From positions 1-45,533 of the IMG/VR virus record IMGVR_UViG_3300030101_004148: a stretch of DNA of 45,533 nucleotides; one strand, 5' to 3'. Numbering within the stretch: the stretch's first letter is position 1; each line of letters starts with the position of its first letter. The stretch comes from a virus. Positions 1 to 29,788 of the stretch are shown piece by piece. Both the position numbers and the translations under genes were made by a program. The notes under the pieces are model-generated. The model made no database searches, had not been told where the DNA came from, and was given only the letters and a program-made list of their open reading frames with translations.

Positions 1-123
1 CTCTATGGAGATAAAAAAGAAGCAGAGGAAGATTGTTACGGGAACGAGGAAGTATTACATTTCGAACAATTACCAGAAACTAAACAAAAAGAAATTATTC
101 ACCAATTAGGGGATAGCGTTTAA
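1..123 (+). CDS. Partial hypothetical protein (C-terminal 40 residues)
   Basis: Frame 1 is open from the window edge to a TAA at 121-123; the start lies outside. The visible tail is hydrophilic and Glu/Lys-rich, ending in LGDSV, and I recognise no family. Its stop codon is formed by the first GTTTAAAC palindrome (118-125), read as GTT TAA. Codon use matches the following small genes, and the next start is 27 bases downstream, so it is probably the upstream member of the same early operon. Confidence 0.6.
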   Translation, partial: LYGDKKEAEEDCYGNEEVLHFEQLPETKQKEIIHQLGDSV

Positions 124-150
124 ACGAAGTTTAATTTAAAATTTATAATT

Positions 151-363
151 ATGGCAGATATTCAAAAACCATTAACAACAGAAGAAAGATTCGAGCAAGT
201 ATCTTATTGGTATAATCAAGTTGATAGTTGTTCGCTCAGCAGTGTAGTAGACGCTTTATTTGAAGAGATTAACGAACAGATGAAAGAAGCTGAAGTTCCT
301 GAAGAATATTATCAAGAGGTTTTCAGTTTAGTGAATGAAGATTATACTATAAGGCGTAGCTAA
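151..363 (+). CDS. Hypothetical small acidic protein (70 aa)
   Basis: The ATG at 151 follows an AT-rich leader (TTTATAATT) typical of Flavobacteria-type starts that lack a Shine-Dalgarno. The product is soluble and strongly acidic, with Glu and Asp in the pattern of short amphipathic helices, and has no membrane segment. Family not recognised. Its stop TAA overlaps the ATG of the next gene (363), which argues for translational coupling within the early operon. Confidence 0.65.
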   Translation: MADIQKPLTTEERFEQVSYWYNQVDSCSLSSVVDALFEEINEQMKEAEVPEEYYQEVFSLVNEDYTIRRS

Positions 364-494
364 TGCACAGAATTGAAAGACAAATAATGCACGCGGTTTA
401 TAAGGCAAGAGAGCAAAGGCGTTTAAACAGGCTGATTGCAGAAAAAAAGTCGCGTGCGTTTAAACAAGGTGAACAAATAAAAATAATATTTTAA
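363..494 (+). CDS. Hypothetical small basic protein (43 aa)
   Basis: A short frame whose ATG overlaps the previous stop (TAATG) and whose own stop is at 492-494. The product is Lys/Arg-rich with many Gln residues and looks like one charged helix. It contains two GTTTAAAC palindromes only 37 bases apart (421 and 458), one read as Arg-Leu-Asn and the other as Ala-Phe-Lys. Family not recognised. The overlap upstream and the complete absence of a gap support a real gene, but its small size leaves some doubt. Confidence 0.45.
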   Translation: MHRIERQIMHAVYKAREQRRLNRLIAEKKSRAFKQGEQIKIIF

Positions 495-504
495 TGTACA
501 AAGC

Positions 505-535
505 TTGCACAATTAAAAAACATTTTGTATATTGC
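505..535 (+). promoter_or_regulatory. Candidate Bacteroidetes-type promoter
   Basis: TTG at 505-507 and TATATTG at 528-534 are separated by 20 bases, close to the Bacteroidetes pattern TTTG-N(19-21)-TAnnTTTG. The match of the -7 element is imperfect. It would give a short leader before the ATG at 560, and it is one reason to prefer that ATG over the in-frame ATG at 494. Confidence 0.4.
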
Positions 536-559
536 ACCCGAATCTTAAAATTAAAAATT

Positions 560-838
560 ATGTATAGTGAAACTAAAACAAAATTATTGCAGACGAGCCC
601 AACGTTCAGTATATCAGACGTGTTCTTTAATTACGGAGCGACAAGCTTTAGTCGATTTAATTTTTTAGAAAATGGTAAAGTCAAAACCATGAGTGCGGAC
701 CAGCGTAAACGTTGGCGAACCGATGACCAAATATTTGAAGGCGTATATGAAGACGCTGAAAAGTTCATCGAGTTCTGGGCACTTGAAGATGTTACAAATC
801 CAATGGAGTTAGCACAAGACTTCATGGATAGATTGTAG
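560..838 (+). CDS. Hypothetical protein (92 aa)
   Basis: The frame is open from an ATG at 494, but I choose 560. The interval 494-559 holds a promoter-like pair of boxes, and the 560 ATG sits behind the A-rich leader (AAAATTAAAAATT) seen before other genes here. The protein begins with MYSETKTKLL and ends in an acidic helical segment (EKFIEFWALEDV). No membrane segment, no recognised family. A GTTTAAAC site lies five bases after the stop. Confidence 0.6.
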   Translation: MYSETKTKLLQTSPTFSISDVFFNYGATSFSRFNFLENGKVKTMSADQRKRWRTDDQIFEGVYEDAEKFIEFWALEDVTNPMELAQDFMDRL

Positions 839-865
839 AAGACGTTTAAACGGGCTGGTTTTGTG

Positions 866-876
866 TATAAATTTTG
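866..876 (+). promoter_or_regulatory. Candidate promoter -7 element before the tRNA-like RNA
   Basis: TATAAATTTTG at 866-876 resembles the Bacteroidetes TAnnTTTG element with one extra base. Transcription would begin about 7 bases downstream, almost exactly at the 5' side of the tRNA-like element at 887. A GTTTAAAC palindrome at 844-851 falls where the -33 region would be. Suggestive only. Confidence 0.3.
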
Positions 877-886
877 TCAGTCCGTT

Positions 887-976
887 GGTGGGTAAAAGAC
901 CTCACGAGATTAGTAGAGATTTATCTCGAACGATAGTGAGTAGGCTTTATAGGGGGTTCGAGTCCCTCACCCACTA
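887..976 (+). ncRNA. tRNA-like RNA element (anticodon not resolvable)
   Basis: GGTGGGT at 887-893 pairs with ACCCACT at 969-975 as a 7-bp acceptor-type stem (one G-U pair). Just inside its 3' strand is a classic T-arm: a five-G strand at 952-956, loop TTCGAGT at 957-963, and CCCTC at 964-968. The span of 90 nt fits a class II tRNA (Ser/Leu size). However, I cannot fold a normal D-arm or a 5-bp/7-nt anticodon arm. The interior instead pairs CTCAC (901-905) with GTGAG (936-940) and GAGAT (906-910) with ATCTC (923-927). No CCA is encoded. It may be a degenerate tRNA, a tRNA mimic, or a copy of a host tRNA 3' end. Confidence 0.4.
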
Positions 977-987
977 CTAAGGGTAAA

Positions 988-1013
988 GCGTGTCACCCGT
1001 TTAAACGACACGC
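988..1013 (+). other. Hairpin presenting GTTTAAAC in its loop
   Basis: GCGTGTC at 988-994 pairs perfectly with GACACGC at 1007-1013. The 12-base loop contains a whole GTTTAAAC palindrome (999-1006). It lies between the tRNA-like element and the ATG at 1033. The sequence after it is AT-rich but has no clean U-run, so it is not a convincing intrinsic terminator. Confidence 0.6.
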
Positions 1014-1032
1014 CTAATTAAATAAAATTTAT

Positions 1033-1320
1033 ATGAAACAGGATATTATATGGGGTACAAGTTGGGAGTCTATTGACCGATATGAAATACATAACGGCAA
1101 AGGAAAAGCTTTGACCCATGCCAACACATGGCAGAACCCAAACAAAAAGACTCGTTCTTTTAACACATTCAAAGAAGCTATGGAGCACTTACGCTCGACC
1201 AGACGCTCTGGTAAAATCGTAGAGTTTATTCAAGTATGGAAACCTTTTCAGATTGCAGATTCATCTGTTAAAGGTATAAGTACAGATATAATTCAAAAAG
1301 ACGCAGACCATGAGAGTTAA
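1033..1320 (+). CDS. Hypothetical protein (95 aa)
   Basis: The ATG follows TAAAATTTAT, the standard leader style of this region. The protein is basic in its first half, with Thr-Arg-Arg-Ser-Gly-Lys near residues 56-61, and ends acidic. No recognised domain, signal peptide or membrane segment. The stop overlaps the next gene's ATG (1310) by 11 bases in another frame, indicating co-transcription with the downstream genes. Confidence 0.6.
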   Translation: MKQDIIWGTSWESIDRYEIHNGKGKALTHANTWQNPNKKTRSFNTFKEAMEHLRSTRRSGKIVEFIQVWKPFQIADSSVKGISTDIIQKDADHES

Positions 1321-1630
1321 GAGAATAGAGCAGTCTATAATCCGCAAAGAGGTAGGCCCACGTGGTGGCGGGATTGAGATAGACTTAAAAAAATGGGGCT
1401 ACCCAAATGGAAAGATGACGGCATATCAAAACTACCTTGGTGGTGGATTGCTGGGAAGAGTTGACGGCGATTGCAATGTTCCAGACTGGAAAAGCATAGC
1501 CCGTTTAAACGAGCTGAATGAAAAGCTGAAGAGATACTATCATAATTTAACCAATGGTTTTCATGATGACTGCTTCTGGTCTTCATGTAGCTATGAGGAT
1601 AATCAAAAAAGACAAGCAAGTGCATATTAA
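1310..1630 (+). CDS. Hypothetical protein (106 aa)
   Basis: It starts inside the end of the 1033-1320 gene. The protein has a basic N-terminus, a Gly-rich patch (GPRGGG near residue 17, LGGGLLG near 43) and a Trp/Tyr-containing C-terminus. A GTTTAAAC site at 1503 is read as Arg-Leu-Asn. Family not recognised. The next gene starts within its 3' end in a different frame, so at least one of the two starts may be shifted. Confidence 0.55.
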   Translation: MRVKRIEQSIIRKEVGPRGGGIEIDLKKWGYPNGKMTAYQNYLGGGLLGRVDGDCNVPDWKSIARLNELNEKLKRYYHNLTNGFHDDCFWSSCSYEDNQKRQASAY

Positions 1631-1925
1631 TACAACACAAACAAAAGTCTTCAGACTGGACGCATGGCGTTCATGGTTGGAGCCAGTCAATGCTGTTGGT
1701 GGTTGTAACTTTACAGACCAATGGCATGAGACTGCAATGAGTGAAGTCGACAGCTTCTGTAAGAAACTTAGACAAGCAAAGATTAAGTATCGTTGTGTTT
1801 GGGGCGACTCATCAAATGTTTTTATGAAAATCAAATTCATTTGTGTTCACCCCGACCAACGACTTGAGGCGCAGGCGATAGCGTTTAAACATCGTGACGA
1901 AACAGAATATTTTTATAACCTTTAA
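1593..1925 (+). CDS. Hypothetical protein (110 aa)
   Basis: An upstream in-frame ATG exists at 1554, but 1593 (MRIIKKDKQ) gives a sensible charged start and less overlap with the preceding gene (38 bases). The protein contains several Trp, Cys and His residues, a motif IKFICVHPDQR in its second half, and no membrane segment. The GTTTAAAC at 1883 is read as Ala-Phe-Lys. No family recognised. Confidence 0.55.
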   Translation: MRIIKKDKQVHINTTQTKVFRLDAWRSWLEPVNAVGGCNFTDQWHETAMSEVDSFCKKLRQAKIKYRCVWGDSSNVFMKIKFICVHPDQRLEAQAIAFKHRDETEYFYNL

Positions 1926-1935
1926 ACTTTATTAT

Positions 1936-2178
1936 ATGGCAAAACTAAATAAACATCTGATTGCATCAGAACATCTGGACAAGCTGCAGTTTCAAATAGA
2001 AGAAACTAATGACGCTTTAAAATGGTTTGAATTCAATGATATAGTGGCGTGGGCAGATACCGATAAAACGAGTGTGTACGTAGAAGTAAGTCACGATACT
2101 CATGTGTTACTGAGTGGCTGTGAAGTTTCCTATCGAGCAGACTTATATAGAGAATTTTATAATAATCAAAATAAATAA
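1936..2178 (+). CDS. Hypothetical protein (80 aa)
   Basis: An in-frame ATG exists at 1894 but overlaps the previous gene. The ATG at 1936 has the local leader TTTATTAT and begins MAKLNKH, so it is preferred. The product is acidic and mixed alpha/beta in appearance, with no recognised motif. Two bases separate it from the next start (2181), so both probably belong to one operon. Confidence 0.6.
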   Translation: MAKLNKHLIASEHLDKLQFQIEETNDALKWFEFNDIVAWADTDKTSVYVEVSHDTHVLLSGCEVSYRADLYREFYNNQNK

Positions 2179-2180
2179 AT

Positions 2181-2582
2181 ATGGCAAAAGCAAAAATTAA
2201 AAACAAAAGCGAAGACTATCTTAGTATAGACTTAGACCAACGATACATGAGCACGTATCATTTCGTTGGTTACAATGAACTATCTAATGTAGCTAACATG
2301 CTGTGGGGCAAAGGTTGGATAGCGTGTGATGACTGCTCTCAAATACAGGAAATTTTAGACCACGTTGAAAAGGATATGTACATAGTAAAACATATCTCAG
2401 GGTTGCGTGATGAATGCGATATCGAAGTCCGTTTAAACGAAGCTTGGGGTCTTCAAAAACAAATAGATTGGTTCAATGATTTTGTTGATTATGTTCAGCA
2501 AAACTCAACCAATATATATAATGAAGCCTGTACCCATGCTGATTACATGGAGGAAACTATAGAAGACGAAAAAGATGAGTAA
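2181..2582 (+). CDS. Hypothetical acidic protein (133 aa)
   Basis: The ATG at 2181 follows AAATAAAT. The first residues are Lys-rich, the rest acidic, ending in EETIEDEKDE. Cys-Asp-Asp-Cys near residue 50 is conspicuous but is not a metal-binding pattern I can name. GTTTAAAC at 2431 is read as Arg-Leu-Asn. The 3' end overlaps the next ATG (2575) by eight bases. No family recognised. Confidence 0.6.
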   Translation: MAKAKIKNKSEDYLSIDLDQRYMSTYHFVGYNELSNVANMLWGKGWIACDDCSQIQEILDHVEKDMYIVKHISGLRDECDIEVRLNEAWGLQKQIDWFNDFVDYVQQNSTNIYNEACTHADYMEETIEDEKDE

Positions 2583-2808
2583 GTATCAAGGAACCTACGC
2601 AATAGAAGAAGAAACCTACACGTTGACTGTAGACTATTCTTATTACTGGGACAATGGTGATTACTACCAGCCTCCCGAAGATGATTTAACTATACAAGCA
2701 GTATGGTTAAACGGAAATGATATAACAGATTTCTACTGGGATTGGGTTGATGATAATTTACATTCACAAGTTAGAGAGTACGCGGTTGAAAATAAACCCT
2801 GGTATTAA
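2575..2808 (+). CDS. Small, strongly acidic, Tyr/Trp-rich protein (77 aa)
   Basis: It starts inside the end of the preceding gene. I count about 16 Asp/Glu against 3 Lys/Arg, together with about 12 Tyr and 5 Trp, for example DFYWDWVDD near residue 50. There is no membrane segment and no recognised family. The small size, extreme negative charge and early position resemble phage DNA-mimic or host-takeover proteins in general character only; that role is an inference. It is the last gene before a strong Bacteroidetes-type promoter. Confidence 0.6.
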   Translation: MSKYQGTYAIEEETYTLTVDYSYYWDNGDYYQPPEDDLTIQAVWLNGNDITDFYWDWVDDNLHSQVREYAVENKPWY

Positions 2809-2823
2809 TTTGTCTCTAAATTG

Positions 2824-2855
2824 TTTGGAAAATATAAATAGATTGTATAAATTTG
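2824..2855 (+). promoter_or_regulatory. Bacteroidetes-type promoter (TTTG-N20-TAAATTTG)
   Basis: TTTG at 2824-2827 and TAAATTTG at 2848-2855 are exactly 20 bases apart, a full match to the known Bacteroidetes sigma-ABfr consensus. It sits in the short gap before the ATG at 2877, giving a leader of roughly 15 bases. It should drive the 2877-5985 operon and is the best single sequence indicator of the host phylum. Confidence 0.75.
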
Positions 2856-2876
2856 CAACAATTAAAATTAAATTAA

Positions 2877-3053
2877 ATGGCGAAATATAATAACGAATTT
2901 AAATATCAAGATAAAGTGTTTGATAAATTTCTTAATAGTTTGTTTCCAATTACTGACAAGGAAGAGGATAAAGAAGAGAAGCCAAAGCCTAAGCCAGAGC
3001 TTCCTCCTATTCCTTGGGGTAAGAACGATGACGAACCGCCTTTGTTTATATGA
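2877..3053 (+). CDS. Hypothetical small protein (58 aa), charged and Pro-rich
   Basis: This is the first gene after the 2824-2855 promoter, with leader AATTAAATTAA. The N-terminal 25 residues look helical. A Lys/Glu stretch and alternating Lys-Pro follow, and the end is PPLFI. The stop TGA overlaps the next ATG (ATATGA). No family recognised; the coupling at both ends supports a real gene. Confidence 0.55.
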   Translation: MAKYNNEFKYQDKVFDKFLNSLFPITDKEEDKEEKPKPKPELPPIPWGKNDDEPPLFI

Positions 3054-3199
3054 CTGAAGAAGATAAAAAGTATAGACAAGGTAGAACGTTTAAACAGCGT
3101 GAAGCACAATATAAATTTATGGAATTTCTTATTGGCTTCATGGCTGTTTGCGTCCTCGCATTTATTTTATATGAAACATTAAAAATTATTTATGGTTAA
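3050..3199 (+). CDS. Small single-pass membrane protein (49 aa)
   Basis: The ATG at 3050 overlaps the previous stop, and its own stop (3197-3199) lies within the next gene. A charged N-terminal half (TEEDKKYRQGR) is followed by one hydrophobic segment at about residues 25-41 (FLIGFMAVCVLAFILY). The topology suggests an inner-membrane protein with a cytoplasmic N-terminus. The role is unknown. A holin is possible but unlikely given the early position. GTTTAAAC at 3088 is read as Thr-Phe-Lys. Confidence 0.55.
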   Translation: MTEEDKKYRQGRTFKQREAQYKFMEFLIGFMAVCVLAFILYETLKIIYG

Positions 3200-3515
3200 A
3201 ACAGAAGATTTAATTAAACAGGTAGGTAAAGAAGTTGTCCTTCTGCTACTTGAAAAGAACAAGGCCTATGGTGACACGGCTAATAATCCACCACAAATTT
3301 TTAGTAAGCTATCTCCTAAAGAAGGGTTGCTTGCTCGTATTGATGACAAGCTTAGCAGAATAAAGCAGAAGGGTTTAAACGACCTCACTGAAGATACTGT
3401 TCAAGACTTAATTGGTTATCTTATTTTATATAAGGTGCAAGTAAAGAAAGAAGAAAACAAAATCAAGGATATCTTGATTGAGGGAAAGAATCAAAAATTA
3501 AAAGAATTTAAATAA
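3192..3515 (+). CDS. DUF1599/nucleotide-modification-associated-domain-1-like protein (107 aa)
   Basis: The all-helical protein contains the pattern EKNKAYGDTANNPPQIFSK (residues 21-39), then LLARIDDKLSRI and a C-terminal DTVQDLIGYLILYK. This reads like DUF1599 proteins (nucleotide modification associated domain 1), which resemble MazG-type all-alpha nucleotide pyrophosphohydrolases. The Glu, Lys and Asp residues could bind metal and nucleotide. In a phage it would act on nucleotide pools or modified bases in the host cytoplasm. The substrate is not predictable. It is coupled to neighbours on both sides, including a one-base overlap with the next ATG. GTTTAAAC at 3373 is read as Gly-Leu-Asn. 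Confidence 0.6.
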   Translation: MVKTEDLIKQVGKEVVLLLLEKNKAYGDTANNPPQIFSKLSPKEGLLARIDDKLSRIKQKGLNDLTEDTVQDLIGYLILYKVQVKKEENKIKDILIEGKNQKLKEFK

Positions 3516-3820
3516 TGAAAGGAAATATATTTGAAGCGTATGCGAACGCGGTTGCTAAACAATTTCATCTTGAATTAGATGAGATGTTTAATAAAGATAA
3601 ACGAAGAGACTTGGTTGATGCCAGGCAAATGCTTTATTACTTATGTATGGAAAGACCTATTAGAGTTTCTTATATACAAAGGTACATGGCAGAGCATGGC
3701 TGTGATGTTTTTCACTCCACTATTATTCATGGCTATAAGAAAGCTAAAAAAATGGTAGCTGAAGATGAAGACTACAAGGCTATCGTAGAATTAATAGAAC
3801 TACAGAATTTAAAAGTATAG
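3515..3820 (+). CDS. DnaA domain-IV-like DNA-binding protein (101 aa)
   Basis: The C-terminal two-thirds follow the DnaA domain IV plan. A helix containing DARQMLYYLCMERPIRV (about residues 36-52) is followed by a recognition-helix region with FHSTIIHGYKKAKK (about 66-79), the equivalent of the DnaA signature around DH(S/T)T(V/I)xHA. There is no AAA+ ATPase domain, so it is not an initiator by itself. It likely binds duplex DNA in replication or transcription control. A second protein of the same kind is encoded at 10344-10757. Its target is unknown; the GTTTAAAC repeats are one candidate by inference. Confidence 0.6.
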   Translation: MKGNIFEAYANAVAKQFHLELDEMFNKDKRRDLVDARQMLYYLCMERPIRVSYIQRYMAEHGCDVFHSTIIHGYKKAKKMVAEDEDYKAIVELIELQNLKV

Positions 3821-3821
3821 C

Positions 3822-4214
3822 ATGTTTAAACGCAAGGATATCATGAATCAAGCTTTGGGAGACCCTAAAAGTATTAAGAATGTTTTACCGAAAGGTGTAA
3901 GCGTTATTGGTAGGGGTGTTAAGATACAACAGTTTGATGACGGTATACAAATACTCAACATGGGAAAAGGCGGTGACTATTTTAAAGAGTGTTCCGATGA
4001 AGAGTATGATTTCTTTTATAAAGACGGCTGGCGTAAGGGTTGCACGCAAGTTAGCATGAGTAACTGCTTGCATAAGCTGTCAATAATCGAATCAAGAATT
4101 AAGACTGAATTGAATACTCGTAAGAACGATAAGCATATTCAGAACTTAAAAAACCGCAGGGAAACTTTACTTAATAAGTATACAAATTTAAAAACAGAAC
4201 TTAATAATTTATAA
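3822..4214 (+). CDS. Hypothetical protein with C-terminal coiled coil (130 aa)
   Basis: It starts one base after the previous gene. The start codon is followed at once by a GTTTAAAC palindrome (3824), which encodes residues 2-3 (Phe-Lys). The N-terminal part has a beta-like stretch (VSVIGRGVKIQQF), and the last ~50 residues are a long charged helix with heptad-like Leu/Ile spacing. No recognised family. Its position before the annealing protein suggests a recombination/replication accessory role, which is inference. Confidence 0.55.
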   Translation: MFKRKDIMNQALGDPKSIKNVLPKGVSVIGRGVKIQQFDDGIQILNMGKGGDYFKECSDEEYDFFYKDGWRKGCTQVSMSNCLHKLSIIESRIKTELNTRKNDKHIQNLKNRRETLLNKYTNLKTELNNL

Positions 4215-4215
4215 T

Positions 4216-4803
4216 ATGGAAAATGTATATAAAAATCTGAGCTCAATCTCAGTTGCCGATAAGGTAGAAAAAAAAGGTAGGTATGATTACCTGTCTTGGG
4301 CGTGGGCTTGGCACTACGTCAAACAAGAGTACCCAACAGCAAACAGAATTGTTTATGAAAATGAATCAGGTATGCCGTACTTTACTGACGGCAAGTTTGC
4401 TAATGTAAAAGTTGGGATAGTAATTGATGGTATTGAACATATTGATTATCTTCCAGTATTAGATAACGCTAACCGTTCTATTGCTCTAACAAAGATGACG
4501 TCGTTCGACGTCAACAATGCAATACAAAGAGCTACAGCAAAAGCTATAGCAATGCACGGACTTGGTTTATCGTTGTGGATAGGGGAAGACACGGGTCGTT
4601 TAAACGAGTCGAAAGATAAACCTGTTCAAAAGAAAGAGCAAACCTTTGAATTAACTACAGACAAATGGGCTAAGGTCTTGATGTATGTAGCTAAGAATAA
4701 AGAAAAAGGTTTGGATTATATTGTGGCACAGTTGTCAACAAAGTATAAGGTAACTCCAGCTATCAAAACTAAACTCAAGAAAGCTATTAATGGACAGAAG
4801 TAA
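4216..4803 (+). CDS. DUF1071-type single-strand annealing protein (195 aa)
   Basis: Residues 24-41 (YDYLSWAWAWHYVKQEYP) and the later FDVNNAIQRATAKAIAMHGLGLSLWIGED block (about 97-125) match the conserved layout of DUF1071 proteins, a branch of phage single-strand annealing recombinases. Such proteins coat single-stranded DNA and anneal complementary strands in phage recombination and double-strand-break repair. The C-terminal ~60 residues are basic and could contact DNA. The 3' end overlaps the exonuclease gene by 14 bases, giving the usual annealase/exonuclease pair. GTTTAAAC at 4598 is read as Arg-Leu-Asn. Confidence 0.75.
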   Translation: MENVYKNLSSISVADKVEKKGRYDYLSWAWAWHYVKQEYPTANRIVYENESGMPYFTDGKFANVKVGIVIDGIEHIDYLPVLDNANRSIALTKMTSFDVNNAIQRATAKAIAMHGLGLSLWIGEDTGRLNESKDKPVQKKEQTFELTTDKWAKVLMYVAKNKEKGLDYIVAQLSTKYKVTPAIKTKLKKAINGQK

Positions 4804-5590
4804 GATACTCAAAAAGCTTCAAAAGGATTCAGAATATTATGGGAAGTTTGGTAAGCAGTTTTTATCTGCTTCTAATATAAGGCAACTACTTTACAAGCCT
4901 ACTGACTTTAATAAATCAGATAAGACTTTGCCATTACTACAAGGTAGATACTTTCACACAAAGATTCTGGAACCAGAAAAGATAGACACGATACCAGTAT
5001 TCAATGCCTCATCAAGAACAACCAATGCGTTTAAACAGTATAAGATTGAGCAACAGCTTGACCAGTACGATGTTCTTTTGACAAAAGAAAAAGACGCATT
5101 AGATAACCTGGTTGATAAGATGTTGAGTAACTGGACGGTGTTTGATTTGGTTTACGGTGATAAGACTGAGTATGAAGTACCTAACATAAAAGAAATACAC
5201 GGACACATGTTCAAAGGTAAGTGTGATGTATTGGTTAACGAACCTTTTGAATTGGAAATAGAACATGACGGTGGTACTTTTATAATGGATTATCCAGACG
5301 GAGCTGTCGTAGATTTAAAAACCAGCTCTGACATATTTAAGTTTAGACATTCTTGTTCTGCTTATTGCTATAACTCACAAGCCTACATATACCAAGAGTT
5401 GTTTGGTAAACCGTTTGTGTTTGTGGCTATAGGTAAGAATGACGGATTATTAAAAGTTTTTCCTACAAGTCAAGAGTTTATTGACAAGGGTGAAGACAAT
5501 GTTAAAAAAGCAATTAAAGTATATGAAAAGTTTTTTAGTAATGATGCGCCTTGCGACATCGATGATTACATATATACGGAAGTTCTATAA
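4790..5590 (+). CDS. PD-(D/E)XK exonuclease, DUF3799/YqaJ-RecE-like (266 aa)
   Basis: The N-terminus has the ASNIRQLL pattern and LLQGRYFHTKIL, where Gly and His belong to the conserved front helix of this family. The metal-binding core follows as HGHMFKGKCDVLV (about residues 138-150) and AVVDLKTSSD (about 171-180), the D...DxK of PD-(D/E)XK nucleases. A Tyr/Gln helix (YNSQAYIYQ) comes next. It should resect double-strand ends to give 3' overhangs for the annealing protein encoded immediately upstream. The length is normal for phage RecE/YqaJ-like nucleases. GTTTAAAC at 5029 is read as Ala-Phe-Lys. Confidence 0.75.
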   Translation: MDRSKILKKLQKDSEYYGKFGKQFLSASNIRQLLYKPTDFNKSDKTLPLLQGRYFHTKILEPEKIDTIPVFNASSRTTNAFKQYKIEQQLDQYDVLLTKEKDALDNLVDKMLSNWTVFDLVYGDKTEYEVPNIKEIHGHMFKGKCDVLVNEPFELEIEHDGGTFIMDYPDGAVVDLKTSSDIFKFRHSCSAYCYNSQAYIYQELFGKPFVFVAIGKNDGLLKVFPTSQEFIDKGEDNVKKAIKVYEKFFSNDAPCDIDDYIYTEVL

Positions 5591-5729
5591 CTCGTTTAAA
5601 CGTCGTTATAAAACTGATGATAAAAAATTGTGGATAGAAGTTCCAACTATCTACATGAGCAAAGAGGAAAGGGATACAACCATTCTAAATGCTGTGAATA
5701 TTTTGGAGCGTAATATTAAAATTAAATAA
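5562..5729 (+). CDS. Hypothetical small protein (55 aa)
   Basis: The frame is open from 5481, but most of that lies inside the exonuclease gene. ATG at 5562 (MITYIRKFYNS) leaves a 29-base overlap and is the last ATG that retains most of the non-overlapping frame. The product is basic at first and then mixed, with KEERDTTILNAVNILERN near the end. A GTTTAAAC at 5594 is read as Ser-Phe-Lys-Arg. No family recognised; the start is uncertain. Confidence 0.45.
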   Translation: MITYIRKFYNSFKRRYKTDDKKLWIEVPTIYMSKEERDTTILNAVNILERNIKIK

Positions 5730-5730
5730 T

Positions 5731-5985
5731 ATGAGTACAGAAGTTAAGAACGAAAAGTTATATTGTGGAAGCGGTGTTGAAAAGTTTGACGGCAATCTTG
5801 TTGAGATTACTGTTTGCTTATCAAAGATTCCACAAGAACATAGGTTCGAGTACGAAGGTAAGTGGTATACAAAACTCAAAGTCAACAAGAAAAAAGAGAC
5901 TGACGAATATGGTAAGACTCACTCTGTTGAAGTAAACACTTGGAAGCCTGAGCCTCAAAACGATAAGGACGACTTGGGATTCTAA
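5731..5985 (+). CDS. Candidate single-stranded DNA-binding protein (84 aa)
   Basis: It starts one base after the preceding gene. The compact, beta-rich sequence (VEITVCLSKIP, KWYTKLKVNKKKE, SVEVNTWKPE) ends in a short acidic tail finishing DKDDLGF, reminiscent of the DD-x-P/G-F tails by which SSB proteins recruit partners. The position after annealase and exonuclease genes fits a phage SSB. The fold is shorter than a bacterial OB-fold SSB, so the call rests on tail, context and composition. A terminator-like hairpin follows. Confidence 0.5.
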   Translation: MSTEVKNEKLYCGSGVEKFDGNLVEITVCLSKIPQEHRFEYEGKWYTKLKVNKKKETDEYGKTHSVEVNTWKPEPQNDKDDLGF

Positions 5986-6018
5986 AAATTTTGGAAGCCG
6001 TAAGGCACAGCATAATTT

Positions 6019-6052
6019 AGGGGGGCTTTTGTGAGTTTGGTTTATCCCCCCT
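6019..6052 (+). terminator. Terminator-like hairpin after the SSB-like gene
   Basis: AGGGGGG (6019-6025) pairs with CCCCCCT (6046-6052) around a 20-base loop, followed by TCTTTATG. The stem is strong but the loop is long and the U-tract weak. It lies in the 198-base gap (5986-6183) between the recombination operon and the primase-helicase gene. That gap otherwise holds only AT-rich promoter-like sequence. Confidence 0.5.
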
Positions 6053-6102
6053 TCTTTATGTTGATTATGACAAACTCAAATTAAACAAAACGATTGACAA
6101 AA

Positions 6103-6110
6103 TAATTTTG
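6103..6110 (+). promoter_or_regulatory. Candidate -7 element upstream of the primase-helicase
   Basis: TAATTTTG at 6103-6110 matches TAnnTTTG, but no clear TTTG lies at the -33 distance. It is placed after the 6019-6052 hairpin and about 74 bases before the ATG at 6184, where a new transcript would be expected. Confidence 0.3.
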
Positions 6111-6183
6111 ATTTTATATTTATCTATATCTATATTATTAGTTTACTTTGTCATTCTCGTCATAAAAAATAGAATATAATAGA

Positions 6184-8589
6184 ATGGAAATAACAATATT
6201 TAAAGACATAAAAGTTACGTCTCAACCTTTTTATAGGGGTGCTTTAGTTATTTTAAATAGAATAAAAGAAGGAGCTTCAAAAGATTTAGTAAAGAGAATC
6301 AGAGAAGAAAAAGATAAAGAAAAAGTAAACGCATTGAAACAAAAGCTTCCAGCTATTTGTTTTAGTGGCAAGTTTACAAAGCGTAATGATAAGTCACTAA
6401 GCCAACACAGTGGTTTAATTTGTTTAGACTTTGACGGTTACGAATCACAAAGAGATTTATTACAGGAAAAAGAAAGACTCTCCAAAAACAATTATGTTTA
6501 CTCGGTATTTATATCACCTTCTGGTAAAGGATTGAAAGCGATTATTAAGATACCTCCACTACCAGACAATCATGTAAGCTATTTCAATAGTTTAGAAAAA
6601 CATTTTAACTCTCCTCAGTTTGACAAGACTTGTAAGAATGTATCTCGTGTTTGTTATGAAAGCTACGACCCACTCATACATATCAATGAGAACGCCAGTG
6701 TTTGGGATAAGCAAGAGGAAAAAGAATACACTGAGGTTATAAAGAACGTTGACCTACAAACTATACCAATCACTGACGAAAATAAAATAGTAGAAATACT
6801 TGTTAAGTGGTGGCAAAAGAAATTTCCAATGAGTGAGGGACAAAGAAATAATAACGCTTATGTTTTGGCCGCGGCCTTCAACGATTATGGTGTCACCAAA
6901 ACTTTAGCAGAGTATGTGCTTGGAGGTTTTGAAACCACATCGTTTAAACGTTCTGAAATTAAAAGAACTGTTGACTCTGCATACGCACAGATACAAAACT
7001 TTGGTACGAAATATTATGAAGATGATGAGAAGGTAAACATGATTAAGCATAAGCTTAAACGAGGTGTTTCAAAGAAAGAATTAAGAACGCAGTTAACAGA
7101 GCTCGACCCTAACTTGGTTGAGAATGTTATCAATAGATTAGAAGAAGAACAAAGTAATCATCAGTTCTGGACAAAGAATGAAAAAGGTGTAATCAAAATT
7201 GTACACATATCTTTTAAAAACTTTTTAGAAGAGAATGGTTTTTATAAGTTTTGTCCTGAAGGTTCTAAGAATTATGTGTTTGTTAAGGTAACAAACAATT
7301 TGATTGACCATACATCTGAAAAAGAAATTAAAGATTATATACTAAATTATCTTTTAGAGATAGATGATATATCAGTTTACAATTACTTTGCTGAACATAC
7401 AAGATACTTTCGTGAAGAGTTCTTGACATTGCTTTCATCTATTGATGTATACTTTATTGAAGATAAAAAAGAAACGTCTTACTTATATTACAGAAACGGA
7501 GCTGTTGAGATTACATACAACAACATCAAACAAATTGATTACTTAGACCTTGGTGGTTATGTTTGGAAAGACCACGTCATTGATAGAGACTTTGCTTTAT
7601 GTGAAAGCATTGATTGTGATTATCAAAAGTTTATCCAAAACATTTGTGGTAATAACGCACAGCGTGTCAACAGTATGCGCTCAACGATTGGCTACATGCT
7701 TCATGGTTGGAAGAACCTGGCATATTGTCCTGCTGTTATATTAAATGATGAAATGATTTCAGATAATCCTGAAGGTGGTAGTGGTAAAGGTTTATGGGTC
7801 AACGGACTTAGTCACATGAAAAAAGTTGTAGTCATTGACGGTAAGTCATTTAACTTTGAGCGTTCATTTGCATATCAGCTGGTAAGTGCTGATACTCAAG
7901 TGCTTTGCTTTGATGATGTTAAAAAACATTTTGATTTTGAAAGATTGTTTTCAGTAGTAACCGAAGGTTTAACATTAGAAAAGAAAAATAAGGACGCAAT
8001 CAAAATACCTTTTGCTAAGTCACCAAAGATAACTATCACAACTAACTATGCTATCAAAGGTAAAGGCACATCATTCGAAAGGCGTAAGTGGGAGCTGGAG
8101 TTAGCTCACCATTATAATAAAGATTACACTCCCCTGGAAGAGTTTGGTAAACTTATGTTTGGTGATTGGAATGATGAGGAGTGGTGTCAGTTTGATAACT
8201 ATATGATTCAATGTTTACAGTTATACTTAGAGAAAGGATTAATGAAAAGTGAGTTTGTAAATTTAAAAATTAGAAAGCTCTCAGCTGAAACATGCCATGA
8301 ATTTATTGAATGGTGTGGAGTTATAGGTGATAATCCTATACACGATAAACTAAAGGTTGGTGGAAAGGTTCCTAAGAATGATTTGTATACTGACTTTGTT
8401 GAGGACAATCCAGACTTTGCACCTAAATCAAGACTTAGTGTATCAAGAGTTAGATTTTCTAAATGGCTGGTAGCATTTTCATTATACCATTATGGTTGTG
8501 CTCCTGAAGAAGGAAGAGATATGCACGCCAGGTGGATTAGATTTAGACACAAACATGAGCTCGATGAACAACAAGATTTTCCTTTCTGA
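6184..8589 (+). CDS. Primase-helicase with VirE-N-like and SF3/DUF5906-like domains (801 aa)
   Basis: The N-terminal ~180 residues resemble the BT4734/VirE-N domain common in Bacteroidetes mobile elements, with LICLDFDGY near residue 78 and VFISPSGKGLKAIIKI near 112-127. A helical middle part follows. The C-terminal half is a superfamily 3/DUF5906-type helicase with Walker A GGSGKG at about 531-536, Walker B QVLCFDDV at about 571-579 and a sensor-like KITITTNY near 616. It likely primes and unwinds DNA at the phage fork. The gene starts after a terminator/promoter gap and overlaps the next gene's ATG. GTTTAAAC at 6942 is read as Ser-Phe-Lys-Arg. Confidence 0.75.
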   Translation: MEITIFKDIKVTSQPFYRGALVILNRIKEGASKDLVKRIREEKDKEKVNALKQKLPAICFSGKFTKRNDKSLSQHSGLICLDFDGYESQRDLLQEKERLSKNNYVYSVFISPSGKGLKAIIKIPPLPDNHVSYFNSLEKHFNSPQFDKTCKNVSRVCYESYDPLIHINENASVWDKQEEKEYTEVIKNVDLQTIPITDENKIVEILVKWWQKKFPMSEGQRNNNAYVLAAAFNDYGVTKTLAEYVLGGFETTSFKRSEIKRTVDSAYAQIQNFGTKYYEDDEKVNMIKHKLKRGVSKKELRTQLTELDPNLVENVINRLEEEQSNHQFWTKNEKGVIKIVHISFKNFLEENGFYKFCPEGSKNYVFVKVTNNLIDHTSEKEIKDYILNYLLEIDDISVYNYFAEHTRYFREEFLTLLSSIDVYFIEDKKETSYLYYRNGAVEITYNNIKQIDYLDLGGYVWKDHVIDRDFALCESIDCDYQKFIQNICGNNAQRVNSMRSTIGYMLHGWKNLAYCPAVILNDEMISDNPEGGSGKGLWVNGLSHMKKVVVIDGKSFNFERSFAYQLVSADTQVLCFDDVKKHFDFERLFSVVTEGLTLEKKNKDAIKIPFAKSPKITITTNYAIKGKGTSFERRKWELELAHHYNKDYTPLEEFGKLMFGDWNDEEWCQFDNYMIQCLQLYLEKGLMKSEFVNLKIRKLSAETCHEFIEWCGVIGDNPIHDKLKVGGKVPKNDLYTDFVEDNPDFAPKSRLSVSRVRFSKWLVAFSLYHYGCAPEEGRDMHARWIRFRHKHELDEQQDFPF

Positions 8590-9860
8590 TGATAAAACTT
8601 AGACCATACCAAAAACAGATTGTAACACAGGGTGCAGAAATTGTAACACGCTACGGGTTTGTCTATCTGGCAATGGAAGTTAGAACAGGTAAGACATTGA
8701 CAAGCTTAAGTATATGCCAGCGTTTAAACGCAACCAATGTCTTGTTTGTTACAAAGAAAAAAGCAATATCAAGTATTGAACACGACATGAGTTTGTTACA
8801 AGCACCGTTTAAACTACATGTAATTAACTATGAATCTTTACATAAAGTGTCTCATGAGACAATATATGACTGTCTCATAATTGATGAAGCTCATACCATA
8901 GGAGCTTATCCAAAACAAAACAAAAGAAGTGGTCAAATAAAAAGACTTATTGATATACATCACCCTCGTGTAATTCTTTTATCAGGCACACCAACACCTG
9001 AATCATACAGTCAAATGTATCATCAAGTATCTGGTATTCCATCAAATCCTTTTGCATATTGTAAAAACTTTTATCAGTTTGCAAACAACTATGTAACTGT
9101 TAGGAAAAAAATTATTAATGGGTTTCCTATCAACGATTACTCAAACGGTAATAAAGATATACTAAAGGTTATGAATAAGTATATGATATCTTATTCTCAG
9201 AAAGAAGCTGGTTTTAAAGTTCAAACAGATGAAGAAATTTTGTACGTGGATATTTGTCCTGACGTAACAGACATGATGAAAAAATTATCAAAGGATAAAG
9301 TATTGCAGGGTGAACAGGAAGTTATACTTGCTGACACTCCAGTAAAGCTAATGATTAAAACACATCAAATGAGTTCAGGAACTATTAAATTTGAGAGCGG
9401 TGAAAGTATGGTTCTTTGTCATCAGAAAGCCAGGTACATACGTAAAAAATTTGAAGGTAAAAAGATTGCTATATTTTATAAATTTAAAGCAGAGCTTAGT
9501 GCATTGAAAGAAGAATATGGCGATTTACTTTGCACCACGCTTGATGTGTTTAACACAACACCACGCTCCATTGCATTACAAATAGTCAGTGGTCGCGAGG
9601 GAATTAGTTTGCGTAAAGCAGAAGCTTTGGTATATTATAATATTGATTTCAGTGCCACAAGTTATTGGCAGTCAAGAGATAGAATGACAACTAAAGATAG
9701 GTTATATAATAAAATCTATTGGGTCTTTTCTAAAACGGGTATTGAAAAACAAATATACAAAGCTGTTGTTAAGAAGAAAGATTATACTCTCAGTCATTTC
9801 AAGAAAGATTTAGTAACTTTAGAAGATGACAGAGCAGAAGATACAGGCGAAGGTAATTAA
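8589..9860 (+). CDS. SF2 DEAH-box (SNF2/UvsW-like) DNA helicase (423 aa)
   Basis: A compact two-lobe SF2 helicase. A Q-motif-like RPYQKQIV lies near the start, Walker A VRTGKT at residues 31-36, DEAH at 99-102 and motif III SGTPTP at 132-137. A C-terminal lobe has VSGREGISL and QSRDRMTT in the motif V/VI positions. It resembles SNF2/UvsW-type phage helicases that remodel forks or branched DNA. The ATG overlaps the primase-helicase stop, and the 3' end overlaps a nuclease gene, so the three are co-translated. Two GTTTAAAC copies (8722, 8807) lie 85 bases apart in it. Confidence 0.8.
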   Translation: MIKLRPYQKQIVTQGAEIVTRYGFVYLAMEVRTGKTLTSLSICQRLNATNVLFVTKKKAISSIEHDMSLLQAPFKLHVINYESLHKVSHETIYDCLIIDEAHTIGAYPKQNKRSGQIKRLIDIHHPRVILLSGTPTPESYSQMYHQVSGIPSNPFAYCKNFYQFANNYVTVRKKIINGFPINDYSNGNKDILKVMNKYMISYSQKEAGFKVQTDEEILYVDICPDVTDMMKKLSKDKVLQGEQEVILADTPVKLMIKTHQMSSGTIKFESGESMVLCHQKARYIRKKFEGKKIAIFYKFKAELSALKEEYGDLLCTTLDVFNTTPRSIALQIVSGREGISLRKAEALVYYNIDFSATSYWQSRDRMTTKDRLYNKIYWVFSKTGIEKQIYKAVVKKKDYTLSHFKKDLVTLEDDRAEDTGEGN

Positions 9861-10068
9861 AGAAATGGAGGCTAAGGGATATTATGTTATCAAGTTAAAG
9901 ATGACAAATAAAAACGGAATCCCTGACTTGATAGCTATACCTCCTAATTCTGACGTTGAATTCATTGAAGTAAAAAAAACAAATGGGAAAGTTTCTAAAC
10001 TACAAGAATATAGAATTGAAGAACTTGAAAAACATGGATGTAAAGTTTCAGTACGTAAAGGACTTTGA
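9826..10068 (+). CDS. VRR-NUC domain nuclease (80 aa)
   Basis: A minimal stand-alone VRR-NUC (PD-(D/E)XK) fold. An N-terminal helix (QAKVIKEMEAKGYYVIKL) is followed by NKNGIPDLIAI with the catalytic Asp and then EFIEVKKTNGKVSKLQ with the Glu-x-Lys. The family's usual C-terminus with EELEKHGCKV completes it. Stand-alone VRR-NUC proteins act on branched DNA. Overlap with the SF2 helicase gene (35 bases) suggests that the two work together on replication or recombination intermediates. Confidence 0.8.
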   Translation: MTEQKIQAKVIKEMEAKGYYVIKLKMTNKNGIPDLIAIPPNSDVEFIEVKKTNGKVSKLQEYRIEELEKHGCKVSVRKGL

Positions 10069-10387
10069 GATTGATGATGATTTTATTTCAGCATTACAAG
10101 ATGTTCCTCAAACATTATCTTTAACTATAGCTCTTTACATAGAAGAGTATTTACCTGAGCTACCTGTAAATGAATTGTGTTCTCACGTAAGAGCAGGTTT
10201 AGTTTATCATTATGGTAAACCAATACCATTTTTAATAGAAGTTACAAAACCAGATGAAGAGTTAATGGTTCTTAGTGACTTACAATTTATAGACATGGAC
10301 GAGTATTTAGATTTTATAAATCTTAAATTAAATTTAGTTGTTGATGAAAGATTCAGTTATCCAAAACCTCCTCGTCGAGGCAAGTAA
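10034..10387 (+). CDS. Hypothetical protein (117 aa)
   Basis: The frame opens at 9983, but the ATG at 10034 (MDVKFQYVKDF) fits better and still overlaps the nuclease gene by 35 bases. The protein is acidic and probably alpha/beta, with VNELCSHVRAGLVYHYGKP and a C-terminal DEYLDFINLKLNL. No recognised domain. It is coupled to the DnaA-like gene that starts within its 3' end. Confidence 0.6.
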   Translation: MDVKFQYVKDFEIDDDFISALQDVPQTLSLTIALYIEEYLPELPVNELCSHVRAGLVYHYGKPIPFLIEVTKPDEELMVLSDLQFIDMDEYLDFINLKLNLVVDERFSYPKPPRRGK

Positions 10388-10757
10388 AATTTTTAAAGTA
10401 GATATCTATTCTAATTGTAGACAAGAACAATATATCCTGGCAAGGGCAGTTGTTTATAGTATTATGAGAGACTGTTTAAACATGACCTATCAACAGATAG
10501 GAAAAGTTTTTAACAAAAATCATGCTACAATTATGCACGCTTATAACGAGCTGCCTTACATGATTAAATACAATAAATCTTTAGCTGAAAAAAAAGTAGA
10601 ATTGTTAAAAACCTGGGGTGAAAACTACCATGTAAAGAGGTATACAAAGCATTCTGAACAGATAAAAGATTTGCAGGAACGAATTTTTTTACTTAATTTG
10701 GAGTCGAGACTATTACAAAATCAATTAGACACTCTTCAGAAACACACAGTGCAATAG
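10344..10757 (+). CDS. DnaA domain-IV-like protein with C-terminal coiled coil (137 aa)
   Basis: A TTG six bases upstream (10338) is in frame, but ATG 10344 (MKDSVIQN) is the natural start. Residues ~24-70 follow DnaA domain IV: QYILARAVVYSIMRDCLNM, then TYQQIGKVFNKNHATIMHAYN. The second stretch corresponds to the helix-turn-helix and the H-(S/A)T-(V/I)-x-HA recognition signature. The last ~50 residues form a charged coiled coil (LQERIFLLNLESRLLQNQL), so it may dimerise, unlike the simpler paralogue at 3515-3820. There is no ATPase domain. GTTTAAAC at 10474 lies inside the region that codes for the helix-turn-helix. Confidence 0.65.
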   Translation: MKDSVIQNLLVEASKIFKVDIYSNCRQEQYILARAVVYSIMRDCLNMTYQQIGKVFNKNHATIMHAYNELPYMIKYNKSLAEKKVELLKTWGENYHVKRYTKHSEQIKDLQERIFLLNLESRLLQNQLDTLQKHTVQ

Positions 10758-10776
10758 GGAAGCAACTGTACAATAA

Positions 10777-10968
10777 ATGACACCTGTTTCTAAGAATGAC
10801 CATTCATCTATTTCTCACATTAATCATGTGACTAACGATAGTCATGACCTTATTAACAAACTATACGAAGACTTAATGGACCGTGACAATGAGAAAGCAA
10901 AACAAACTGCACAACAGATTTGCAAAGTCATGGCTGAATTAATTCAATCACTAACAGATGAAATATGA
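10777..10968 (+). CDS. Hypothetical small protein (63 aa)
   Basis: It begins 19 bases after the DnaA-like gene. The N-terminus is Ser/His/Asn-rich, and the rest is an amphipathic helix (DNEKAKQTAQQICKVMAELIQ). No recognised family. Its stop overlaps the next ATG (ATATGA), indicating coupling. Confidence 0.55.
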   Translation: MTPVSKNDHSSISHINHVTNDSHDLINKLYEDLMDRDNEKAKQTAQQICKVMAELIQSLTDEI

Positions 10969-11297
10969 ATAGAGATAGGGCCCTTGAGCTCAAGAAATTT
11001 GCACAAACCATTGCTGATAGGTTTTCAAATTTCAACAGAGACGGAAATCAAAACAAAGAAACTTTTACTGTCGAGGATATAATTCCTTTATCGGATGATT
11101 CAGCGGTAATTAATTTTAAAAAAACATCTAACTTGAAAACAAGCGGTAAGCTTGCAGTTGCGTTTTGTTATTATATAAATAGAGGAAGGTCTAAAGGTTG
11201 GAAGTATTTTTTCCCAACTGATTCCCACGTGAGCGGAATGCAGGCATTCCATTTTTATAAGCTACAAGCGGAGAGGACAAACTATAGTAAGAATTAA
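10965..11297 (+). CDS. Hypothetical protein (110 aa), last gene of the early block
   Basis: It is coupled to the previous gene by a four-base overlap. The pattern is beta-rich (DSAVINFKKTSNLK, GKLAVAFCYYINRGRSKGWKYFFPTD) with a basic C-terminus, and no family is recognised. Its last 107 bases overlap, tail to tail, the 3' end of the opposite-strand gene at 11191-11526. A 6-bp hairpin (11235-11250) followed by ATTTTTAT lies within this overlap. Confidence 0.55.
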   Translation: MNRDRALELKKFAQTIADRFSNFNRDGNQNKETFTVEDIIPLSDDSAVINFKKTSNLKTSGKLAVAFCYYINRGRSKGWKYFFPTDSHVSGMQAFHFYKLQAERTNYSKN

Positions 11298-11526
11298 GAA
11301 GCTTGTGTTCTTTTAATTCAGCACACTTTTCATAGTCTTCTACCTCTATAAAGTATTCCATTAGGACATCAAACACATCATCTTCCATTGTAACCACAGG
11401 CTTTGTTGGATTAAATATAAATGCGGGTGGATTGTTTTCATCATCTAACAACTCCTCATAAGAAGCCTTACCAGTTAATAATTTATAACTGTCCATCATA
11501 CATTTATGTTCATCAAAGTATTTCAT
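11191..11526 (-). CDS. Hypothetical protein with UVR-like helix (111 aa)
   Basis: The start ATG overlaps the stop of the 2201-aa gene (ATGA), so it is the last gene of the late block. The N-terminal ~80 residues look structured. VLMEYFIEVEDYEKCAELKEHK (near residues 53-74) resembles the paired helices of UvrB/UvrC interaction motifs, seen in many small phage proteins. The last ~30 residues, which overlap the + strand gene, are low in structure. Function unknown; possibly a virion or chaperone accessory. Confidence 0.55.
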   Translation of the reverse strand: MKYFDEHKCMMDSYKLLTGKASYEELLDDENNPPAFIFNPTKPVVTMEDDVFDVLMEYFIEVEDYEKCAELKEHKLLNSYYSLSSPLVAYKNGMPAFRSRGNQLGKNTSNL

Positions 11527-28873: not shown

Positions 28874-29788
28874 CTACTTTATCCATTTATCCTGACCTCT
28901 TAAATTCATTAAGAGTCGACCAGGGTGTATATTACTTAATCTTATTTTTGCATTACGAAGTAAAGAAGACTTATCTTTTTGAGCTCTTCTTACTACATAT
29001 TCTTGCACTCCTAATCTACTATTCAAAATGGAATATTTAATATATGCGTATATATATTCTTCAAATAATTTGTTTACACTAATTTTAGAATCATCTCCAC
29101 CTTCCATACCGTCTGACACATACTCTAATACCACAGAAGCTGTATCTCCTAATGAGCTAAAATTAATTACTCCTGCTTTTTTATCAATAGTAAATGTAGG
29201 ATTTACATTTGCTGTTTCCGTGTTTAAACCAAATCGTGCCCCAACTGAGTAATCAAAATACCAACAGCCATCAACACAAGTTCCTTCACAATTATGAAAC
29301 ATGCTATTACTGTTTAAATATATCCCCACTCTACCCCTGCTTAAATCAACTTCAGAATCTTGAGGGCTCAAAGCATTTCCATCTTGGTCAAATAATATTC
29401 TACTATTATTATCTTGTAAATATGCAGAGCTCCAATTAGTTTGTATATTTTCGCTCATAGGATATAACACACCATTTCTAAATTGAGATATTCTAACCCA
29501 ATTTACATAGTCAGATGGTAAAATAAATCTGGAAGAGCTATCCACATCTAACTGTAATATTTTTATTTCTTTCATGGCGTCATAGTTCAACTCTTGAATA
29601 CCACGCTTAGCATGAAATAATATTTGAAACCTATTAATGTTGTTTACTAATTCATGATTTCCTTGATACATCAACATAAAATTATTTACTATGTCTTGTA
29701 AAGACACATATTGATAAGACCCCCAATTAGCATCATCAGGAGCGTTACCATTGTTTGTGTAATATTGATATTGATTTATATATGTCAT
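28874..29788 (-). CDS. Ring/adaptor protein of the portal-tail junction (304 aa)
   Basis: A helical N-terminal third (VSLQDIVNNFMLMYQGNH, AKRGIQELNYDAM) is followed by LQLDVDSSSRFILPSDYVNWVRIS, a pattern of head-tail adaptor/gatekeeper ring proteins in crAss-like phages, then a mixed region and a basic C-terminus. It would join the portal to the tail barrel. It sits between the other ring gene and the nozzle gene with one-base gaps. Confidence 0.6.
   Translation of the reverse strand: MTYINQYQYYTNNGNAPDDANWGSYQYVSLQDIVNNFMLMYQGNHELVNNINRFQILFHAKRGIQELNYDAMKEIKILQLDVDSSSRFILPSDYVNWVRISQFRNGVLYPMSENIQTNWSSAYLQDNNSRILFDQDGNALSPQDSEVDLSRGRVGIYLNSNSMFHNCEGTCVDGCWYFDYSVGARFGLNTETANVNPTFTIDKKAGVINFSSLGDTASVVLEYVSDGMEGGDDSKISVNKLFEEYIYAYIKYSILNSRLGVQEYVVRRAQKDKSSLLRNAKIRLSNIHPGRLLMNLRGQDKWIK

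Follow-up and report, generated by a model that had tools for sequence, protein, structure and literature searches.

Closest described systems

The described system nearest to the one considered here is that of the cluster A mycobacteriophages (e.g., L5 or TipsytheTRex), in which a repressor recognizes dispersed stoperators. These are 13-base-pair (bp) asymmetric sites, located at promoters or in short intergenic gaps and oriented with transcription, and the repressor is a two-domain monomer of the helix-turn-helix (HTH) type acting in temperate phages (PMC9283540). In phages of clusters AZ and EH, which have a SprT-like protease among their shared genes, no repressor was identified, and Powerpuff (cluster AZ) is temperate, with lysogens immune to superinfection (PMC8758107). 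The present analysis concerns an 8-bp word, GTTTAAAC, and a phage-encoded SprT-like protein of the family phrog_6361. The word is present in 29 copies in a 45,533-nucleotide stretch of viral DNA, named here the window (bases 1–45533 of the 105,284-base record IMGVR_UViG_3300030101_004148), and it is the repeat that the initial annotation of the window had left unnamed. It is proposed, with a probability of about 0.6, that the phrog_6361 protein recognizes GTTTAAAC, or GTKTAAAC when other phages are included, and uses it for autoregulation and the control of early transcription.

In this protein, a metallopeptidase fold of the SprT type precedes a zinc ribbon at the C-terminus, which opens with a QxTR-type basic motif; its family is listed without an assigned function. 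Spartan-type proteases act on DNA, clearing proteins or crosslinks. The phage proteins resemble metalloproteases of the SprT/Spartan/Wss1 type (PF10263) in a weak Pfam match, the HExxH motif of many members, and the C-terminal zinc ribbon; however, many of them lack HExxH while the sites persist, and no known member of this type has, to our knowledge, been reported to recognize a fixed DNA sequence. The “SprT-like protease” of Arthrobacter, Microbacterium, and Streptomyces phages belongs to the same family by profile and annotation. The family occurs in 163 phage records, often annotated as a protease, and neither a known role for it nor an earlier link between phrog_6361 and a DNA word was found in a literature search of mostly open-access papers. 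The one phage-genome paper matching GTTTAAAC contains the word within a predicted promoter by chance, and the literature matches to GTGTAAAC, a one-base variant of the word, appeared from their titles to be unrelated.

The cluster A repressor and its stoperators are the nearest system in their working: in both cases, a phage protein is accompanied by more than 20 short sites genome-wide, some of them overlapping promoters, and a copy placed like an operator at a predicted phage promoter is found here as well. Most of the features defining stoperators are nevertheless absent. The sites are 8–10 bp long and (near-)palindromic, they lie in both orientations and many of them within genes, the protein is a SprT-like zinc-ribbon protein, and most carriers have no integrase. 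The novelty lies in the pair of protein and site, whose function may prove analogous to that of stoperators.

A sharply defined word under selection

In the window, 14 copies of GTTTAAAC start within the first 5.6 kilobases (kb), four more up to 10.5 kb, and 11 in the remaining 35 kb, exactly as counted in the initial annotation, which had described a density gradient from the left edge. Under a dinucleotide model, 0.55 copies are expected in positions 1–11500, where 18 were observed, and 1.43 to the right of 11500, where 11 were observed. The late copies thus exceed expectation as well and are not merely chance. The 10-bp form CGTTTAAACG occurs nine times in the early part (0.01 expected), and each of the 17 copies within the first 9 kb carries C upstream or G downstream, the extended flank that had been noted before. 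Words differing from GTTTAAAC by one mismatch are not enriched and are mostly rarer than expected, which indicates that the word is sharply defined. The spacing of copies in 118–5594 is more even than random (coefficient of variation 0.36 vs. 0.78, P 0.0005), and even spacing was found also in the clade of the window and in several unrelated phages, with the exceptions of contigs L165, L109, and L187.

The word is under selection. In five comparisons between motif-positive relatives, the alignable sites left unchanged number 24 of 27, 22 of 28, 19 of 23, 17 of 21, and 14 of 19, when 10.9, 9.1, 7.4, 4.9, and 4.4, respectively, would be expected from neighbours in the same phase. Compared with motif-negative relatives, the sites differ chiefly by substitution in place rather than by insertion, and they are located in both coding and noncoding DNA. 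An RNA hairpin element was considered and rejected: few intergenic copies fold better than shuffled sequences, and most phages show little or no flank symmetry past the tenth base, so that a DNA site of 8–10 bp fits better. Junction sites in contig L010 (1841, 2027, 2857, and 4009) and at 999 in the window lie within longer, variable GC-rich inverted repeats, and the four in L010 do surpass shuffled sequences in folding (z −2.8 to −3.7).

The window is the first contig of a scaffold, followed by ten Ns (45534–45543 in G000) and a second, different phage. This phage is colinear with the window, to which most of its alignable stretches are 71–82% identical, and has one GTTTAAAC in 59.7 kb. The two phages are natural opposites, equal in gene order, with the sites in the first only. 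As the Ns join two phages, the 60 kb to their right are uninformative on the window phage.

Co-occurrence of the word with an intact SprT-like ribbon

Across unrelated phages, the abundance of the word follows the presence of the SprT-like gene and whether its ribbon is intact. When viral contigs were scanned for three clustered copies, 102 stretches were obtained, many of them approximately 20- to 200-fold enriched across several kilobases. The dense contigs form few groups, and phrog_6361 spans most of these (three groups), more widely than any other family. It is also the only family common to all of 13 motif-rich phages, the next best being found in six. Conversely, when 80 contigs were chosen through the protein, 71 proved enriched for GTTTAAAC or GTGTAAAC at P<1e-4, and the rest mostly have few sites without being clearly negative; part of this sample was found by a pattern containing QGTR, and it is therefore biased to intact ribbons. 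In all 25 SprT-negative relatives of the window, GTTTAAAC is near background. The long relatives G001 and G002, with 46 and 42 copies, both have the SprT-like gene, which is absent from the motif-negative relatives G009, G010, and B. In bacterial genomes scanned for three clustered copies, one locus among the matches listed matched the SprT profile.

Named phages provide further support. The word or its variant is in excess in 12 of 16 named carriers, including the first six (Dinoroseobacter R26L, Pseudanabaena Pan1, Methylophilales Venkman, Arthrobacter Yang, Microbacterium Floof, and bacteriophage 4A) and six of ten further ones. Yang has 20 sites (0.12 expected), R26L has 14 in 50 kb (0.07 expected), and the Streptomyces phages Bogota and JackieB have 40 and 42, with no copy of a control word in either. 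The four site-less phages among the further ten (FP1, Epa5, Armstrong, and Dismas) are exactly those that have lost the QxTR-type ribbon motif, including its otherwise invariant arginine, and contig L435, with QKNR, also has no sites. The hosts named in the carriers’ records are Actinomycetota, Pseudomonadota, and cyanobacteria. Residues determining preference for GTTTAAAC or GTGTAAAC were sought and could not be assigned, because phylogeny confounds the comparison and both words occur together in many metagenomic carriers.

Matches to the phrog_6361 profile cover most of the protein and reach E 5e-27 for the protein of relative L013 (residues 6–197) and down to 3e-48 for others. The Pfam match to PF10263 is weak (28.8 bits for L144 and 25.6 for L105, at a cut-off of 25.6; most others score lower). 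A search of solved structures gave matches to fimbrial fusions only, which were taken as spurious, and PADLOC and NCBIfam gave no matches. The proteins of G001 and G002 have an HExxH motif (HELVH), and among 33 members selected by the motif, HExxH is present in 16 and lost in 17. The lineages without HExxH that keep the ribbon have a higher density of sites (P 0.002, uncorrected for relatedness). Because the sites persist, and are even denser, where HExxH was lost, it is the ribbon and not the protease that follows them. Two motif-dense contigs encode a zinc ribbon nearly alone, without the protease part (L186, 1198–1470, 90 residues; L190, 2347–2556, 69 residues); these could possibly be natural minimal readers.

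The head of the early operon

The early operon of the window (1–11300, + strand), where sites are dense, is estimated to begin about 2–3 kb left of the window edge. Its head, with the site cluster and the SprT-like gene, is visible only in relatives (L010, 857–930 and 1199–1828; L013, 902–1531), the gene being missing from the truncated window contig. Among 80 relatives collected through the primase-like protein, only a narrow clade, L008–L015, at least 95% identical in this protein, is rich in GTTTAAAC; L034, at 94% identity, has none in 60 kb. L010 matches the left part of the window at 85–94% nucleotide identity and extends about 3.9 kb beyond its edge. Thirteen further copies occur there over 3 kb, at a density of about one per 227 bp, rising to three within 66 bp (857, 898, and 923) in a control region, after which there is none for 2.9 kb. 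This places the centre of the gradient outside the window, as predicted. The leftward extension recommended with that prediction could be achieved through L010, though not within the record itself, the remainder of which is the other phage. The regulator-like gene and intergenic cluster anticipated at the centre have counterparts in the SprT-like gene, first in the operon, and the control region preceding it, both seen in two relatives.

The ends of the G002 contig repeat, and the same peak is seen on its whole circle: the two highest 2-kb bins, with eight and six copies, are within the early operon, when bins of the late half contain 0–2. The three-copy control region is conserved between G001 and G002, including its spacing. 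The corresponding stretch (L010, 780–1199; G002, 50850–51230) is conserved, AT-rich, and noncoding, and contains three GTTTAAAC copies, GC-rich inverted repeats, a DnaA-box-like TTATCAACA, and a Bacteroidota-type promoter (TATATTTG); it may be a replication origin or a control region.

Site placement and the proposed mechanism

In Yang, Floof, Mano, Mica, ep3, Persinger, Bogota, and JackieB, a site is located between −10 and +1 or in the −35/−10 spacer of the SprT-like gene promoter, these promoters, of sigma-70-type appearance, being assigned by eye from sequence alone. In 21 of 74 contigs, a site is found within 120 bp of the SprT-like gene start (9.1 expected). Such promoter-overlapping sites are the anatomy that would be expected of an autoregulated DNA-binding protein. 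Taken together, it is strongly suggested that the protein binds GTKTAAAC through its ribbon and regulates its own promoter. In the proposed mechanism, the zinc ribbon would read GTKTAAAC, and the SprT-like protein would act on its own promoter via the overlapping copy. The other dispersed copies would be further binding sites, and we infer that the accumulating protein damps or shapes early transcription through them, either as a roadblock or by local occlusion of promoters, similar to dispersed operators. In the clade of the window, the sites are concentrated on the early operon; the density gradient could then be explained by this operon being the main target, late genes being largely spared. 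In this clade and in Venkman, sites lie mostly in the early or regulatory half.

Several observations weigh against the proposal. Some dense contigs have no phrog_6361 match; most are fragments, but G032 and G035 are 36–41 kb long. Several carriers have only four copies. The ribbon in the clade of the window reads KDGVR instead of QxTR, with only the arginine retained (TQTTR in the sister L133). Genic sites outnumber promoter sites (Yang has 12 of its 20 within genes and Floof 11 of its 16, although intergenic sites are over-represented relative to an intergenic share of 7.5–7.8%), so autoregulation alone is insufficient. In R26L, Yang, and Bogota, sites span the whole examined stretch, late genes included, which means that the early operon is not a general target.

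If the proposed pairing is correct, it would form part of a widespread, previously undescribed phage system, and we consider this the probable case: a protein of Spartan/SprT fold, whose ribbon would serve as a sequence-specific reader, with regular 8-bp address sites on its own genome and a protease that is dead in some lineages. The SprT-like family thereby gains a testable partner, an 8-bp word repeated up to tens of times in a genome, for which nature also provides loss-of-function controls. Should GTKTAAAC prove to be what the ribbon reads, one site-based strategy of regulation or genome guarding would be common to phages of many hosts, and it would have been overlooked because most sites are within genes.

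Alternative explanations

The main rival to transcription control, the favoured reading, is that a ribbon-bound SprT-like protease is spread evenly on phage DNA and clears host proteins or crosslinks. Binding would be identical in the two cases and only the purpose would differ. The intact HExxH of nearly all protein-selected carriers (a sample found partly via HExxH) and of 16 of the 33 motif-selected ones is consistent with such a role, as are the even spacing, also within genes, and the occurrence of sites both ways: GTTTAAAC is palindromic, and the asymmetric GTGTAAAC is distributed 24:12 in Yang plus Floof and 22:17 in Bogota. However, the loss of HExxH in the other 17, at higher site density with the same uncorrected P 0.002, weighs against a proteolytic purpose, and the promoter-overlapping sites favour regulation. 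We regard this explanation as unlikely.

The chances are clearly lower that the protein is a prophage-type immunity repressor, silencing the lysogen genome through stoperators. It would be the missing repressor of phages such as Powerpuff, whose immunity has no identified repressor while the SprT-like protease is shared within AZ/EH (PMC8758107), and for this reason it is a candidate to be considered there; the serine integrases of Yang and Floof, with 20 and 16 sites, also agree with this. However, an integrase (PF00589 or PF00239) was matched in just seven of 25 carriers and neither in the other 18, and the tyrosine (PF00589) and serine (PF00239) integrase profiles gave no match in G001, G002, Bogota, R26L, Pan1, Venkman, or eight metagenomic phages of 58–64 kb. 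As most carriers have no integrase, classical immunity does not explain the sites in general, and the immunity region suggested for the window in the initial annotation is not borne out by its long relatives G001 and G002.

It is more doubtful still that another phage or host factor reads the sites, the SprT-like gene being merely among its targets. The presence of sites at the promoter of the SprT-like gene would agree with this as well, and binding by the ribbon is a prediction from genomic sequence. However, the named hosts range over Actinomycetota, Pseudomonadota, and cyanobacteria, no second family is common to the 13 motif-rich phages, and lesions of the ribbon coincide with loss of sites.

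Very improbable is the explanation that density marks a replication origin or a partition centre at the control region, two possibilities raised initially, of which partition found no support. The conserved noncoding region with its three sites and DnaA-box-like words, a change of GC skew where the early operon begins, and a phage-encoded protein with a DnaA C-terminal domain speak for an origin. However, transcription diverges at the point where the skew changes, and the sites of other phages are spread genome-wide without a single centre. In contrast to the iterons of replication origins, which form a compact array at one origin, the sites described here are dispersed over genomes, with regular spacing in several phages. 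An origin may be nearby, yet it would leave this spread unexplained.

That the word reflects early-vs.-late base composition or codon use, for which the gradient alone speaks, is refuted by the conservation of sites across phages beyond that of same-phase neighbours and by SprT-negative relatives at background, as well as by the unenriched one-mismatch words and an excess over dinucleotide expectation of about 26-fold in the left 14 kb of the window and up to about 200-fold elsewhere.

Sites of the window and neighbouring features

All 29 sites of the window are recorded with the strand as “.”, and conservation refers to alignment with relatives. In the first site, 118–125, TAA is the stop codon of the preceding reading frame. 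It is followed by 421–428, 458–465, the intergenic 844–851 and 999–1006, the latter within a GCGTGTC/GACACGC inverted repeat, and then by 1503–1510, 1883–1890, 2431–2438, and 3088–3095. The site at 3373–3380 is kept in G001, G003, and G004. The next, 3824–3831, at the start codon of the open reading frame (ORF) 3822–4214, is kept in all five motif-positive relatives and not in G009. Kept in five relatives are also 4598–4605 in the gene of a Sak-type annealing protein (not in G009 or G010), 5029–5036 in a PD-(D/E)XK-like (DUF3799) gene (not in G009), 6942–6949 in the primase-like gene and 8722–8729 in the helicase gene (neither in G009, G010, or B), 8807–8814 in the helicase gene (not in G009 or G010), and 10474–10481 (not in G009 or B); 5594–5601 is at a gene junction.

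In the late region, 29222–29229, 35116–35123, and two sites in the terminase gene, 38104–38111 and 39759–39766, are kept in four relatives, 40335–40342 in three, 14634–14641 in G002, G004, and G005, and 22562–22569 in G001 and G003. The sites at 17799–17806, 20157–20164, and 28252–28259 are unconserved, and 24652–24659 completes the set. A late protein of 2201 residues (11523–18128) matches phrog_32588, of unknown function, and its counterpart ORF in the second phage of the record has 2718 residues. In contrast to most stretches shared by the two phages of the record, one near the contig ends, a 177-bp stretch of the window (43695–43871), is 96.6% identical to L007 (19808–19984).

The small protein of 3515–3820 has a DnaA C-terminal (domain IV) HTH (Pfam 5e-9). 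A similar HTH was recognized by eye only in the protein of 9983–10387 (NHATVIHAY in its G002 homologue), which has no Pfam match; the two could possibly be an origin-binding pair. Beside the control region of G002, a 532-amino-acid ORF (48647–50245 in the primase-plus orientation) looks by eye like a GroEL chaperonin. In contigs L166, L192, and L323, GTTTAAAC forms tandem arrays with a period of about 16–18 or 29 bp, unlike the dispersed sites. In the primase relatives L060 and L070, another word, CGTAAGTCCA, is over-represented with 5–6 copies and is possibly a different dispersed site of that lineage.

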